Assembly: GCA_017482485.1 (NCBI GenBank)
Contig: JAFUMV010000056.1
Coordinates: forward strand, 1-60,461
Length of the DNA: 60,461 bases
Reading direction: 5' to 3'
DNA from: Lachnospiraceae bacterium
GTDB lineage: Bacteria > Bacillota > Clostridia > Lachnospirales > Lachnospiraceae
In this document: piece by piece, positions 1-52,675 of the stretch
Layout of the letters: the number at the start of each line of letters is the position of its first letter
Numbering within the stretch: the first letter of the stretch is position 1
The notes under the pieces: generated by a model
Seen by the model: only the letters and a program-made list of their open reading frames with translations
Databases searched by the model: none
What the model was told of the DNA's origin: nothing
Program-made: the position numbers and the translations under genes

Positions 1-260
1 ATATAGAGATTTTTTCTTTTAAAATACCCCCAAATAGCGTGTTTCGTCAGGGTTAGAGGTCTTCTGGGGGTATATACATTCAAATTTCTCAGAAATACCC
101 TGTATTTATAGTTTTTCCGGGGTATTTCCGCGAAATCTGGGTCCATATACCCTCATCCAGCCATTTTTAAAGATTTTTTGCATGAAATCAGGGTATTTTC
201 GGGAGTTTCGATCGCATATACCCTGGTATGGTTAAGCCGGCCAAGCAAAAGGCCGAACCG
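1..260 (+). repeat. Dispersed four-hairpin intergenic element, copy 1 (cut by the window edge)
   Basis: This is the first of three copies of a non-coding element seen in the window; the others are at 4285-4598 (inverted) and 52361-52675. The left end is missing. Alternating motifs are visible: ATACCC at 24-29, GGGGGTAT at 66-73, AATACCC at 94-100, GGGGTATTT at 119-127, ATATACCC at 145-152, GGGTATTTT at 191-199 and ATATACCC at 216-223. Sequence between the motifs also matches copy 3 closely, for example CATTCAAATTTCTC after the second motif. The reading frame open in the other copies has stops here, so I treat it as RNA or DNA structure and not as a gene. Confidence 0.8.
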
Positions 261-342
261 ATACCATGCGCCCGGCTGAACCGATACCCGGCGCGCGGCT
301 GAACCGATACCAGGTGCGCGGCTGAACCGATACCAGACGCGC
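251..342 (+). repeat. Tandem array, four 23-bp units
   Basis: Four consecutive 23-bp units start at 251, 274, 297 and 320. All share the core GAACCGATACC; the first three bases after it and the GC-rich end (GCGC) vary slightly. A decayed fifth start (GACCGAGCTG) follows at 343. There are no spacers between units, so this is a simple tandem repeat and not a CRISPR array. The array starts where the right end of the dispersed element ends (AAAGGCCGA in both this copy and copy 3) and stops 30 bp before the guaB -35 box. It may have grown by slippage from the end of the element. Confidence 0.85.
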
Positions 343-372
343 GACCGAGCTGTTACGGCGAATATTTTCTGG

Positions 373-2095: not shown

Positions 2096-2102
2096 AAAAA
2101 AG

Positions 2103-2207
2103 AGAGTATGTGACTGGCGGATTAGTGGAGTTCACCACGGGGAGCATACTTATAGGGAAACTATGTTGTGATCGGCAGCGTCGATTGCAATAGCCGACCG
2201 CCTGGGT
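2103..2207 (+). ncRNA. ZTP riboswitch (pfl motif)
   Basis: The sequence shows the hallmark parts of the pfl/ZTP aptamer: GTGACTGGCGGA (2109-2120), a GTGGAGTTCACCAC hairpin (2125-2138), GGGGAGCAT (2139-2147), then a variable region and the conserved 3' end GCCGACCGCCTGGGTA (2193-2208). ZTP/ZMP riboswitches sense AICAR ribotide and its triphosphate, which build up when 10-formyl-tetrahydrofolate is short. Here the element precedes the two genes that consume ZMP (AICAR) and complete IMP, so the ligand is the substrate of the regulated pathway. It is an on-switch: ligand binding should prevent the overlapping terminator at 2195-2256. Confidence 0.92.
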
Positions 2208-2256
2208 ATTTACTTATAATAGTAAACGTTATAAGTGGTATTCAGGCGGTCTTTTT
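2195..2256 (+). terminator. Riboswitch expression-platform terminator
   Basis: GACCGCCTG at 2196-2204, which is also the 3' part of the ZTP aptamer, is complementary to CAGGCGGTC at 2243-2251. An inner ACTTATAA/TTATAAGT stem adds to the hairpin, and CTTTTTAT follows. Sharing one strand between aptamer and terminator is the expected mutually exclusive switch. Confidence 0.88.
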
Positions 2257-2316: not shown

Positions 2317-3030
2317 ATGCAGAAAAGAAATCTTGCGGAAGAATTGAAAGACAACGCATATCCGGGCCGCGGCATCGTGATCGGTAAATCAAAAGACGGT
2401 AAAAAGGCAGTAACGGCATATTTTATCATGGGCAGAAGCTCCAATTCCAGAAACCGCGTTTTTGTAAAAGAGGGAGAAGGCATCCGCACCCAGGCTTTTG
2501 ATCCGTCCAAACTGGAAGATCCCAGTCTGATCATTTATGCGCCGGTGAGAGTGCTGGGCAATAAGACAATTGTTACCAATGGCGATCAGACAGACACAAT
2601 TTATGAAGGCATGGACAAACAGCTGACTTTTGAACAGAGTCTGCGCAGCCGTGAGTTTGAGCCGGACGGACCCAATTATACCCCTCGTATTTCCGGCATC
2701 ATGCACATTGAAAACGGCAAATACAACTATGCAATGTCCATTTTAAAAAGCAACAACGGTGATCCTTCCTCCTGTAGCCGTTTCACTTTTGCTTATGAAA
2801 ATCCTGTGGCAGGAGAGGGTAGATTCATTCATACCTACATGCATGACGGAAATCCGCTTCCCAGCTTTGAAGGGGAACCCAAGCTGGTGGACATCGAAGG
2901 CGATATCGACAGCTTCACACAGATGCTTTGGGAAAATTTAAATGAAGAAAATAAGGTTTCTCTGTTTGTGCGCTATATTGACATTGAAAGCGGCGAATAC
3001 GAAACACGCATTGTGAATAAGAACAAATAA
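2317..3030 (+). CDS. purO: IMP cyclohydrolase, PurO-like
   Basis: This 237-residue protein resembles the PurO-type IMP cyclohydrolase family, which closes FAICAR to IMP, the last step of purine synthesis. It begins with a conserved-looking AYPGRGIVIGKS segment and contains YFIMGRSSNSRNR and YTPRISGI, which I associate with this family. The family was first described in archaea and also occurs in Clostridia, where it replaces the N-terminal domain of bacterial PurH. The next gene, 51 bp downstream, encodes only the transformylase half of PurH, which strongly supports the function. AAAGGAG at 2304-2310 sets the start. Transcription depends on the ZTP riboswitch. Confidence 0.9.
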   Translation: MQKRNLAEELKDNAYPGRGIVIGKSKDGKKAVTAYFIMGRSSNSRNRVFVKEGEGIRTQAFDPSKLEDPSLIIYAPVRVLGNKTIVTNGDQTDTIYEGMDKQLTFEQSLRSREFEPDGPNYTPRISGIMHIENGKYNYAMSILKSNNGDPSSCSRFTFAYENPVAGEGRFIHTYMHDGNPLPSFEGEPKLVDIEGDIDSFTQMLWENLNEENKVSLFVRYIDIESGEYETRIVNKNK

Positions 3031-3081: not shown

Positions 3082-4260
3082 ATGAACGAAATTCAGTTAA
3101 AATATGGATGTAACCCAAACCAGAAGCCTTCCCGCATTTTTATGGAAGACGGCAGCGAGTTGCCTGTAACTGTATTAAACGGCAAACCCGGCTATATCAA
3201 TTTCCTTGATGCTTTCAATGGCTGGCAGCTGGTTTCCGAATTGAAAAAAGCAACAGGACTTCCGGCAGCAACGTCCTTTAAGCACGTTTCTCCTGCCGGC
3301 GCAGCAGTAGGACTTCCGCTTTCTGAAACGCTGGCCAAGATTTACTGGGTGGAGGATCTGGGAGAATTGTCTCCTCTGGCATGTGCTTATGCAAGAGCGA
3401 GAGGCGCTGACAGAATGTCTTCTTTCGGTGATTTTATCGCACTGTCTGATGTCTGTGATGTGGACACCGCAAATCTGATCAAGAGAGAGGTATCCGATGG
3501 TGTGATCGCTCCCGGATATACGGAGGAAGCTCTTGCAATTTTAAAAGCGAAGAAGAAAGGAAACTACAACGTCATTCAGATCGATCTTTCCTATCAGCCT
3601 GCAGCGCTGGAAAGAAAGCAGGTTTACGGCATCACCTTTGAACAGGGTCGGAATGAGTTAAACATCGATCAGGATCTGCTTTCCAACTTTGTGACCGAAA
3701 ATAAAGAGGTTCCTGAAAGCGCTGTCATCGATATGAAGATTGCTCTGATCACCTTAAAATATACCCAGTCTAACTCCGTCTGCTATGTCAAAGACGGACA
3801 GGCAATCGGTATCGGCGCCGGCCAGCAGTCCAGAATTCACTGTACCAGACTGGCAGGTCAGAAGGCTGACAACTGGTGGTTAAGACAGTCCCCTCAGGTG
3901 CTTGGACTTCAGTTTGTAGATGGTCTGGGTCGTGCGGACAGAGATAATGCGATTGATGTTTACATGGGAGAGGAATGCGAGGATGTTCTTGCAGAGGGCG
4001 TATGGCAGACCAGATTCAAAGTAAAACCCCCTGTTTTCACAAGAGAAGAAAAAAGAGCATGGCTTGATAAGCTGGAAAATGTAACCCTGGGTTCCGATGC
4101 TTTCTTCCCCATCTCCGACAACATTGAAAGAGCGCATAAGAGCGGTGTAAAATATATTGCGCAGCCCGGAGGTTCTGTCAGAGATGACGCGGTAATCGAA
4201 TGCTGCAACAAATATGATATGGCGATGGTATTTACCGGTATTCGTCTGTTCCATCATTAA
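3082..4260 (+). CDS. purH: Stand-alone AICAR formyltransferase (PurH transformylase domain)
   Basis: The enzyme transfers a formyl group from 10-formyl-THF to AICAR (ZMP), giving FAICAR for the upstream cyclohydrolase. At 392 residues it matches only the transformylase part of bifunctional PurH (about 510-530 residues); the MGS-like cyclohydrolase domain is absent. LKYGCNPNQKP at residues 6-16 is the typical domain start. SFKHVSPAGAA carries the catalytic Lys67-His68 pair, and later segments such as SNSVCYVKDGQAIGIGAGQQ are characteristic. It forms an operon with the PurO-like gene under the ZTP riboswitch. No terminator with a T-run was seen directly after it; repeat copy 2 starts about 25 bp downstream. 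Confidence 0.95.
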   Translation: MNEIQLKYGCNPNQKPSRIFMEDGSELPVTVLNGKPGYINFLDAFNGWQLVSELKKATGLPAATSFKHVSPAGAAVGLPLSETLAKIYWVEDLGELSPLACAYARARGADRMSSFGDFIALSDVCDVDTANLIKREVSDGVIAPGYTEEALAILKAKKKGNYNVIQIDLSYQPAALERKQVYGITFEQGRNELNIDQDLLSNFVTENKEVPESAVIDMKIALITLKYTQSNSVCYVKDGQAIGIGAGQQSRIHCTRLAGQKADNWWLRQSPQVLGLQFVDGLGRADRDNAIDVYMGEECEDVLAEGVWQTRFKVKPPVFTREEKRAWLDKLENVTLGSDAFFPISDNIERAHKSGVKYIAQPGGSVRDDAVIECCNKYDMAMVFTGIRLFHH

Positions 4261-4284: not shown

Positions 4285-4598
4285 CTGCTGTTGGGCCCTT
4301 TGTCCGGTTTAATTTTCTCGGGGTATATACAATTAAAACGACTGAAAATACCCCGATTTCATGCAGAAAGAGGTTGAAAATGCAGGGATCAGGGTATAGG
4401 GAAGGAGATTTCCCGAAAATACCCCGGAAAACATATCAATATGGGGTATTTCTGAAAAAATTGGATGCATATACCCTCTGAAGGCATATAGCCCTGGCAA
4501 AACTTGCGATTTTGGGGTATTTCAGATGGAAAATTCTGTATATGCCCTGATACCGCAGTCTGAACCACATTTGGCTGGATTTTCTGCAAGACTGCCTG
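4285..4598 (-). repeat. Dispersed four-hairpin intergenic element, copy 2 (inverted)
   Basis: Read on the minus strand, this copy aligns end to end with the copy at 52361-52675 (314 against 315 bp). Both begin CAGGCAG, carry four GGG(T/C)AT...AT(A/G)CCC units of 34-37 nt, and end in a TTAAA-type segment followed by an A-rich stretch and GGGCC/GGCC. Divergence is substantial but length is preserved. The minus strand here is open for about 128 codons and part of the translation resembles the frame of copy 3; stops in copies 1 and 3 argue against coding. It fills most of the gap between purH and the convergent membrane-protein gene. Confidence 0.85.
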
Positions 4599-4710: not shown

Positions 4711-5454
4711 TTAGTTTTGTGAATAATCCGTATAGGAAGTAAATTCGGACTGGGCATCGGATGCACTTTGGGCATAGCCGGAATTCATTCTGTCATCAGC
4801 AGGTCCATACGTATCATCCACTGGCTTTAAGCTTAAGTAATAGCCGGCCATGGTAACGTTCATATAAGGAGAAACATACAAACCAGCAATACCGCAGGTT
4901 ACGCATACGAGCAGGATCCAGAGAATAAAGGAAAGCTCCAGTACAAAGTACTCCCACAGTCTGCCGCGCATGAGCTCCTTACTTTCGTTGACACATTCAC
5001 GAATGCCCTTGTCGGGATTTTCAGCCAGGACATAAAATGCCTGAGAATAACGCAGCGCAGCGATGATGCCGGGAATGTAGCACAGGCAGGACCACAGGAG
5101 CGTAAAAAGGCCGATCCATAAAGAAAGCCCGAAAATTTTGAGCATCATGGGGAAGTAAGAAAAAAGTTCCCCGATTCCGGTTTCTTCCTGTTTGAAAACC
5201 TTCAGTGAGTACACATAATAGCCAAACTGAATGGTTCCAAGCAGCAGACTGATCAGGATGGTGACAACCAGATACACCAAAATACCGATGAATCCTGCAT
5301 TGCCGGATTCATTGCCGGTGATGACGGAAATCACACCGAGAATCATGGAAGCAGCCAGGGAGACTGCAATGTATGCCAGAGTGACGAGAATCGGGCTGGG
5401 AGTGGCCATTCTCATGGCATCTTTGGCATCCTGTTTTAATAAAGCACGGTTCAT
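4711..5454 (-). CDS. DUF975-like integral membrane protein
   Basis: A protein of 247 residues with about five to six hydrophobic segments, beginning MNRALLKQDAKDAM and then a first membrane span near residue 25. The N-terminal R..LK.DAK pattern followed by multiple spans, and a central stretch with YSQAFYVLAENPD and a CVNESKELMRGR segment, fit the DUF975 family of Firmicutes membrane proteins of unknown function. An ATG at 5454 is preferred over an upstream TTG at 5460 because GGAGG lies 7 nt before the ATG and would almost touch the TTG. The C-terminus is polar (Ser, Asp, Tyr rich). It is transcribed alone, divergent from glnS. Confidence 0.75.
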   Translation of the reverse strand: MNRALLKQDAKDAMRMATPSPILVTLAYIAVSLAASMILGVISVITGNESGNAGFIGILVYLVVTILISLLLGTIQFGYYVYSLKVFKQEETGIGELFSYFPMMLKIFGLSLWIGLFTLLWSCLCYIPGIIAALRYSQAFYVLAENPDKGIRECVNESKELMRGRLWEYFVLELSFILWILLVCVTCGIAGLYVSPYMNVTMAGYYLSLKPVDDTYGPADDRMNSGYAQSASDAQSEFTSYTDYSQN

Positions 5455-5654
5455 GATCAAACCTCCTTCATAAGATAGTGATAAAATTTTGTCAAACCAA
5501 ATTATCGGTTCTATTTTATCATAAAGTGCTTTTCAATCATATAGAAATTTTTAGAAAATATTGTATTTTGTTGGTTTGTCTGATAAGATAGAAAAATAGA
5601 GCTGCCAGCCGGACAGTTATGGACGGCTGACAGAATGTTTGAAGAATGATCGAG

Positions 5655-52035: not shown

Positions 52036-52156
52036 ATCGCCTTATTGCAAACACAAAAGAAATCATGATAGAAGGTATGAAAACATGTAATATGTAATCG
52101 TTTTGCTGTATCGGTTATTCCGACAGCATATGTTTCCTTTGCATTCACAAAAGTCT

Positions 52157-52259
52157 GCCTCCCTACGCCGGCATTATCCGGGTCAGGTAGTGAGGGTTAG
52201 AACCTCAGAACATCCTCTGATGTCTCTTCAGTTCAATCTCAGCAATAGCTCCCCTGGCT
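52157..52259 (-). ncRNA. TPP riboswitch (THI element)
   Basis: On the minus strand the conserved parts appear in order: GGGGAGCT, GCTGAGATTGAAC, the variable arm, ACCC, TACCTGACCCGGATAATG and CCGGCGTAGGGAGGCAG. This is the thiamine pyrophosphate aptamer. It lies about 155 nt before thiT and should lower ThiT synthesis when TPP is abundant. Its promoter is at 52278-52307. Confidence 0.96.
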
Positions 52260-52277
52260 AATATTTTGTTCGGGCTT

Positions 52278-52360: not shown

Positions 52361-52675
52361 CAGGCAGGTCCTGCAGAAATTATCGGCCGATTTGGTTCAT
52401 ACTGCAGTCCCGGGGCATATACAGTTTTTTTATGCTAAAATACCCCAAAATAGCGTGTTTTACCAGGTTTAGATGCCTTCAGGGGGTATATACATTCAAA
52501 TTTCTCAAAAATGCCCCGTATTTATAGGTTATCCGGGGTATTTCCAGAAAATTTGCTTCCATATGCCCTCACACCAGTTTTTTTTAATGATTTTGCTTGA
52601 AATCAGGGTATTTTCGGCAGTTTTGATTGTATATACCCCGGCAGAGTTAAACGACTGAACGAAAGGCCGAGTGCC
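52361..52675 (+). repeat. Dispersed four-hairpin intergenic element, copy 3 (complete)
   Basis: The best-preserved full copy. Four inverted-repeat units lie at 52412-52446, 52483-52517, 52535-52568 and 52606-52639, each 34-35 nt, with GGGG(T/C)AT at the left and AT(A/G)CCCC at the right. Start-to-start distances are 71, 52 and 71 nt. CAGGCAG marks the left end and AAAGGCCGA the right end. It fills most of the gap between the divergent thiT promoter and the HAD-CPBP gene. Two short open frames here are separated by a stop and have no ribosome sites, so coding is unlikely. Confidence 0.85.

Follow-up and report, generated by a model that had tools for sequence, protein, structure and literature searches.

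The closest described relatives of the arrangement reported here are repetitive extragenic palindromic (REP) sequences, together with bacterial interspersed mosaic elements (BIMEs) and REP doublets forming hairpins (REPINs). In published accounts (PMC2817692, PMC3116915, PMC3733652), these are short extragenic inverted-repeat units in a fixed, opposed arrangement that flank the gene of an enzyme, the REP-associated tyrosine transposase (RAYT, or TnpA-REP); enzyme and repeat co-vary, and copy number differs among genomes. We analysed positions 1-60,461 of contig JAFUMV010000056.1 of a Lachnospiraceae bacterium (the window), which carries an intergenic element at 52361-52675 and further copies of it. 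The consensus unit is GGGGTATAT-N16-GAAATACCCC, 35 nt long, and complete copies hold four units at a spacing of 71-52-71, with units 1 and 2 opposed in orientation to units 3 and 4. Arrays of this architecture accompany the gene of an uncharacterised protein of about 254 amino acids whose C-terminal domain is, by structural modelling of a homologue, PD-(D/E)XK-like. This nuclease-like gene is the main new fact, as the first-pass annotation of the window, made from the sequence alone, had named no enzyme. That protein and arrays form a cognate system is well supported. We put at roughly 0.55 the probability that the element is a non-autonomous copy of a binding-site array belonging with this protein, which would bind such arrays, cut DNA and disperse the arrays; dispersal by the protein is the best explanation of their spread and remains unproven.

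The gene was reached by comparing the neighbours of arrays across three genomes, which gave several cross-genome matches. The pair taken further was the one whose gene lay between arrays, and the seven other cross-genome pairs are other gene families. The protein gene stands between two arrays in this genome (locus L017) and in genome G236 (L117), a third copy lies beside an array (L107), and in G179 the gene is again found between two arrays. We then scanned 62 loci de novo, requiring three or more units with a common 5-nt arm no further than 900 bp away; the loci were L017, L117 and 60 places around homologues, mostly from the top of the family listing. Same-arm arrays were found at 34 of these 62 protein loci versus 3 of 92 control windows taken from those loci (Fisher p 8e-14). 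The association holds when the three loci that suggested the link are left out (31/59, p 1e-12), and also when two weak arrays are discounted (29/59, p 1e-11), and we regard it as well supported.

Around the gene family the units are inverted repeats of about 31-38 nt whose arms vary from one protein subfamily to another, including GGGTAT, GGGGTC, TGGGCCTG, GGGTAC, GGTCA, TGGGGAGC, CGTCG, CGACT and others. Arm similarity tracks protein identity across 32 arrays (r 0.395, Mantel p = 0.0002; two of the 34 array loci, L189 and L199, were dropped from this test and from that of modal spacing), and does so when same-genome pairs are left out (r 0.391, p 0.0002). Part of this correlation may stem from common ancestry of host and element. 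Mean arm similarity was 1.27 for the six same-genome pairs versus 2.23 for the 78 cross-genome pairs above 45% identity. Two same-genome pairs, both at 51% protein identity, differ in this respect, with like arms in G236 (3.00) and unlike arms in G324 (0.99).

The distance between units is also constrained. Per-locus spacings cluster at 50-54, 61-63, 69-75, 80-86 and 91-94 bp, with 4 of 53 at 41-47; most correspond to whole helical turns (about 5, 6, 7, 8 or 9). Modal spacings at 32 loci gave a period of 10.15 bp (R 0.60) and the 19 tandem arrays a period of 10.30 bp (R 0.82); neither value was reached in 2000 random sets, though the loci in the period test depend on one another to some extent. 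This is most simply read as units lying on one face of B-form DNA, where they would be bound by protein. At one locus (L223, G139:C28), a single protein gene is flanked by 17 units to one side and 8 to the other, set 51-53 bp apart; this array has a CRISPR-like look but is made of inverted-repeat units.

The arrays and units of the window are as follows.

52361-52675, plus strand: array copy 3, with about 50 nt of left flank, four units and about 36 nt of right flank
52412-52446, plus strand: copy 3 unit 1, forward, GGGGCATATAC...AAATACCCC
52483-52517, plus strand: copy 3 unit 2, forward
52535-52569, minus strand: copy 3 unit 3, reversed
52605-52639, minus strand: copy 3 unit 4, reversed
4285-4598, minus strand: array copy 2, units at about 4514-4548, 4443-4477, 4391-4425 and 4320-4354, spacing 71-52-71
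1 to about 260, plus strand: array copy 1, with unit 1 incomplete at the contig edge and units 2-4 at about 67-101, 119-153 and 190-224

The three copies that the first-pass annotation had reported were recovered by our searches of the window, in which GGGGTAT-N5-30-ATACCC has 7 matches versus 0.01 expected. Copy 2 is spaced 71-52-71 and the unit starts of copy 3 lie 71, 52 and 70 apart, the last being 71 when unit 4 is taken without its reduced first G, and the units measure 35 nt. Copy 1, which it had called truncated, is indeed incomplete, solely because the contig, and with it the window, begins there (1-60461). The switch of orientation between units 1-2 and 3-4 had been missed; because of it, the element profile matches both strands of itself. 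The flanks of copy 3 are partly common to other copies. Copy 2 lies between a PurH-like formyltransferase gene (3082-4260) and an open reading frame (ORF) of 249 amino acids (4711-5460), and an IMP dehydrogenase gene (599-2053) is downstream of copy 1. Directly adjoining copy 1 are four copies of a 23-bp tandem repeat (GGCTGAACCGATACCAGGCGCGC; window 251-343), and a similar tandem of about 33 nt, of the element's end, adjoins the array at L017 (about 2400-2525).

The same architecture recurs in other genera, where GGGTAT-N22-ATACCC arrays show the same 51/52 and 71/72 spacing around unrelated interiors. Of 397 genomes of the family, probably Lachnospiraceae, a double-unit pattern matched 4, namely this one, G257, G236 and G122, with no control matches listed; it also matched nine viral contigs; unit counts versus control matches were 31 versus 1 in G257, 40 versus 1 in G236 and 7 versus 2 in G122. 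Every one of the 102 unit distances counted in the stretches of G257 and G236 falls at 50-52, 69-72, 81-83, 121-124, 132-134 or 144, the control pattern gave none, and interiors vary from unit to unit. Among the natures that the first-pass annotation had proposed (structured RNA, multi-site protein-binding array, mobile miniature element), the protein-binding array is well supported by this conservation of spacing despite unrelated interiors, by the helical phasing and by arms that track the adjacent protein. Searched against the wider set of genome contigs, the exact unit pattern gave three stretches, with single units, two of which look like copper-sensor operators. Seven GGGTAT-type tandem units at 51-52 bp occur in G122 (L129, G122:C23, about 2489-2831), and four identical GGGTATAG units lie 73 bp apart at G393:C94:9767-10019, away from the two listed G393 protein matches. 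In Erysipelotrichaceae, GGGGTAT/ATACCCC operator-like units stand beside genes at L057 and L059; we take these genes to resemble copper-sensor (CsoR-type) genes and the units to resemble their operators.

The 254-amino-acid protein, whose gene is on contig C40 of this genome, has no convincing Pfam, NCBIfam or, by sequence, PDB match. It has matches in 128 of the 397 family genomes (E <= 0.001), often as several diverged copies per genome, and among the listed family matches most span most of the protein and a few only part. In a sample of the phylum 10 of 239 genomes matched, three of its own family with full-length matches; in the other seven the match was partial, mostly to the C-terminus, and usually sat in a far longer frame. 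Among phage records, three unannotated ones from the human gut (MT839528.1, MT837260.1, MT839248.1) encode homologues that cover 81-91% of the protein with 27-32% identity (E 5e-19 to 2e-9), and partial matches occur in nine plasmid records, of which eight carry an ATPase or helicase annotation. Queries with the single protein or its N-terminal half found none on viral contigs; all 10 viral-contig homologue loci (L161-L170) are C-termini of large helicase-like ORFs (747-1141 amino acids, some cut by contig ends). The C-terminal domain of about 120 residues is also common to the candidate defence helicases PDC-S68 of PADLOC, with 26 of 26 members matching. Unlike the PDC-S68-type relatives, those on viral contigs reaching about 1000-1140 amino acids where uncut, the protein described here has about 254, an N-terminal half of its own and adjacent arrays. 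Set beside I-Bth0305I (a Vsr-like homing endonuclease) and TnsA of Tn7, the protein stands apart by this N-terminal half, for which Pfam and NCBIfam gave no consistent match. A structure model of a homologous helicase C-terminus (predicted local distance difference test score, pLDDT, 82.9) matched I-Bth0305I, Bax1, Vsr, TnsA and Hjc best, and it is from this model that the PD-(D/E)XK-like fold is assigned. In alignment A1, which leaves out 4 of 30 protein loci (L141, L147, L148, L153), E152, D182 and H198 are invariant in 26 of 26 members and E197 is nearly so; no lysine follows E197 in this alignment, versus the lysine of the D-(D/E)xK motif.

The whole-genome search that the first-pass annotation had suggested returned further copies: blast of the element against its own draft genome (G000) gave 39 matches, including an overlapping pair from opposite strands of a single copy, and an iterated profile over the fetched stretches gave 39 hits (mutual overlap below half), of which 25 are nearly complete. 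Copy number is probably underestimated, because several copies lie at contig ends. Blast against 60 relatives, 12 of them congeners, gave no match. At the site of copy 2 the flanking genes are kept adjacent in 4 of 11 matched congeners (G005, G007, G009, G011), where 116-178 bp separate the matched gene parts versus 546-566 in this genome, a region 377-430 bp longer here; in the remaining seven the second flanking gene is elsewhere or was not found. The suggestion of a mobile element was borne out in part, by the 39 matches here, none by blast in 12 congeners and a shorter region in four. Copies have ragged borders, and no clean target duplications were seen, though no systematic duplication test was made; a 10-12-bp end repeat occurs at some copies only. 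By a rough ORF rule, the gene pairs around arrays are 6 convergent and 11 divergent in this genome versus 11 convergent and 2 divergent in G257 and G236 together (p 0.02).

Scattering differs among genomes. Same-motif arrays are scattered in this genome, G257, G236 and G316 and were found only or mainly at the gene in G179 and G249. All four exact GGGTAT units of G179 are at the protein gene, as are eight TGGGC units of the 12 genome matches in G249, where three other listed matches lie elsewhere and are not of TGGGCCTG form. The congeners G005, G006 and G008 have 2, 3 and 2 GGGTAT units versus 1, 3 and 1 control matches. G316 has scattered pairs of TGGGCAT units at 51, 81, 82, 93, 133 and 144 bp, by a pattern that is permissive (41 matches versus 13 controls in G008). 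As a separate candidate we considered a terminal-inverted-repeat transposon with CAGTTCAGCCTTC ends. This end pattern is enriched in the genome (77+93 versus 16+22); the candidate was rejected, as 19 of 20 CAGTTCAGCCTTC-pattern regions read had no array match, and many of the pattern's matches look coding by eye.

Like REP/RAYT systems, this one has an enzyme gene flanked by cognate, co-varying repeats, with a different enzyme: a PD-(D/E)XK-like protein here and a Y1 tyrosine transposase there. The Y1 transposase profile PF01797 had no matches in G000, G257 and G179 and short fragments only in G236 and G316, while 5 of 14 control genomes were positive. The arrays are set apart from REP/RAYT by its defining feature, because no Y1 transposase was found in this genome. 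They also differ in that most units here follow one another at whole helical turns, in runs of as many as 17 (L223). The REP-type GTAG/CGTC tag was not seen at the foot of most units in the consensus for this genome; some copies have a GTAG after unit 4, and one other locus has CGTCG arms. Among the papers listed by searches of open-licence full text, none showed such an enzyme-array system or a name for these regularly spaced repeats.

In the mechanism we propose, the protein, probably through its N-terminal half, which may hold an AP2-like domain, would bind the arms as a phased multimer on one DNA face, and its C-terminal nuclease domain would cut DNA. Cutting with repair or insertion would then copy arrays into new intergenic places, with dispersal only in some lineages. 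By analogy, the system would work like RAYT/REP, but through an enzyme of unrelated type and on a recognition array that is double-stranded and helix-phased. More tentatively, and at somewhat less than even odds, we suggest that a Vsr/homing-endonuclease-like protein assembles on phased arrays and copies them, that enzyme and motif diversify into orthogonal pairs within one family, and that this constitutes a new class of selfish or domesticated system. If true, the RAYT/REP way of life would have arisen independently a second time, here from a homing-endonuclease/Tn7-type nuclease fold. The many enzyme-array pairs would then form a natural code of sequence-specific DNA recognition, readable from genomes, and there would be an explanation for one class of regularly spaced repeats between the genes of these bacteria.

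The most serious alternative, which we nevertheless consider unlikely, is a DNA-binding regulator or chromosome organiser with phased operators at its own promoter and scattered sites elsewhere, the arrays having spread through duplication and recombination of the ordinary kind and its nuclease fold being unused for dispersal. Arrays lie only 5′ of the gene at 19 of the 34 loci, with the nearest 5′ unit often 75-250 bp before the matched start, as a regulator would have it; however, they are only 3′ at 8 and on both sides at 7. Helical phasing fits cooperative binding, and the extreme divergence at fixed spacing in G257 and G236 suggests a retained function. One duplicated array belongs to a duplication that reaches well beyond the array itself, again as this alternative expects. 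The invariance of E152, D182 and H198 and near-invariance of E197 speak against an unused nuclease fold, and the 39 matches here versus none by blast in 12 congeners look like a copying burst.

A defence system, in which the nuclease attacks foreign DNA and the arrays serve as loading sites, regulator or host self-mark, appears improbable. It would account for the C-terminal domain common to PDC-S68 (26/26) and viral-contig helicases, for the patchy distribution with several divergent paralogues per genome and for the homologues in three gut phage records, but the PDC-S68 label is a candidate assignment by profile match of one domain, and no scattered GGGTAT units were found in G179. Still less credible is that the element is a miniature inverted-repeat transposable element moved by an unseen transposase and that the nuclease gene is a passenger: dispersed similar copies and the end repeat at some of them agree with it, but the same architecture with unrelated arms accompanies the nuclease family, and this genome has no Y1 transposase match (other transposase classes were not searched).

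For a structured RNA, the element does fold better than shuffles on both strands (z -4.9, -4.2), and in G236 a set of 40 distinct 34-nt units exceeds shuffles in within-unit complementarity (z 3.4), which points toward RNA. The low fold energy, however, follows from the opposed orientation of the unit pairs, which gives the element its long-hairpin fold, and neither the 33-nt units of G236 (z -0.9) nor those of G257 gave a complementarity signal, the value in G000 being below shuffled. Over 22 aligned copies the paired fraction was 0.843 versus 0.844 shuffled within units and 0.948 versus 0.949 across units in the long hairpin. Double changes numbered 7 within units and 1 across units, counts that 89 and 469 of 500 shuffles also attained. 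The earlier impression that changes in the paired ends keep pairing was thus not upheld, and the covariation test proposed with it found none. Comparison with Rfam, also proposed there, matched no known family, either for the element or for the arrays of eight protein-array loci. A structured RNA is not supported, because of the lack of covariation in 22 copies and of an Rfam match, and we regard it as scarcely credible.

Elsewhere in the window, Rfam identified a TPP riboswitch at 52143-52265 (minus strand) before a thiT-like gene and a ZMP/ZTP riboswitch at 2100-2214 (plus strand) before an ORF at 2317-3030.
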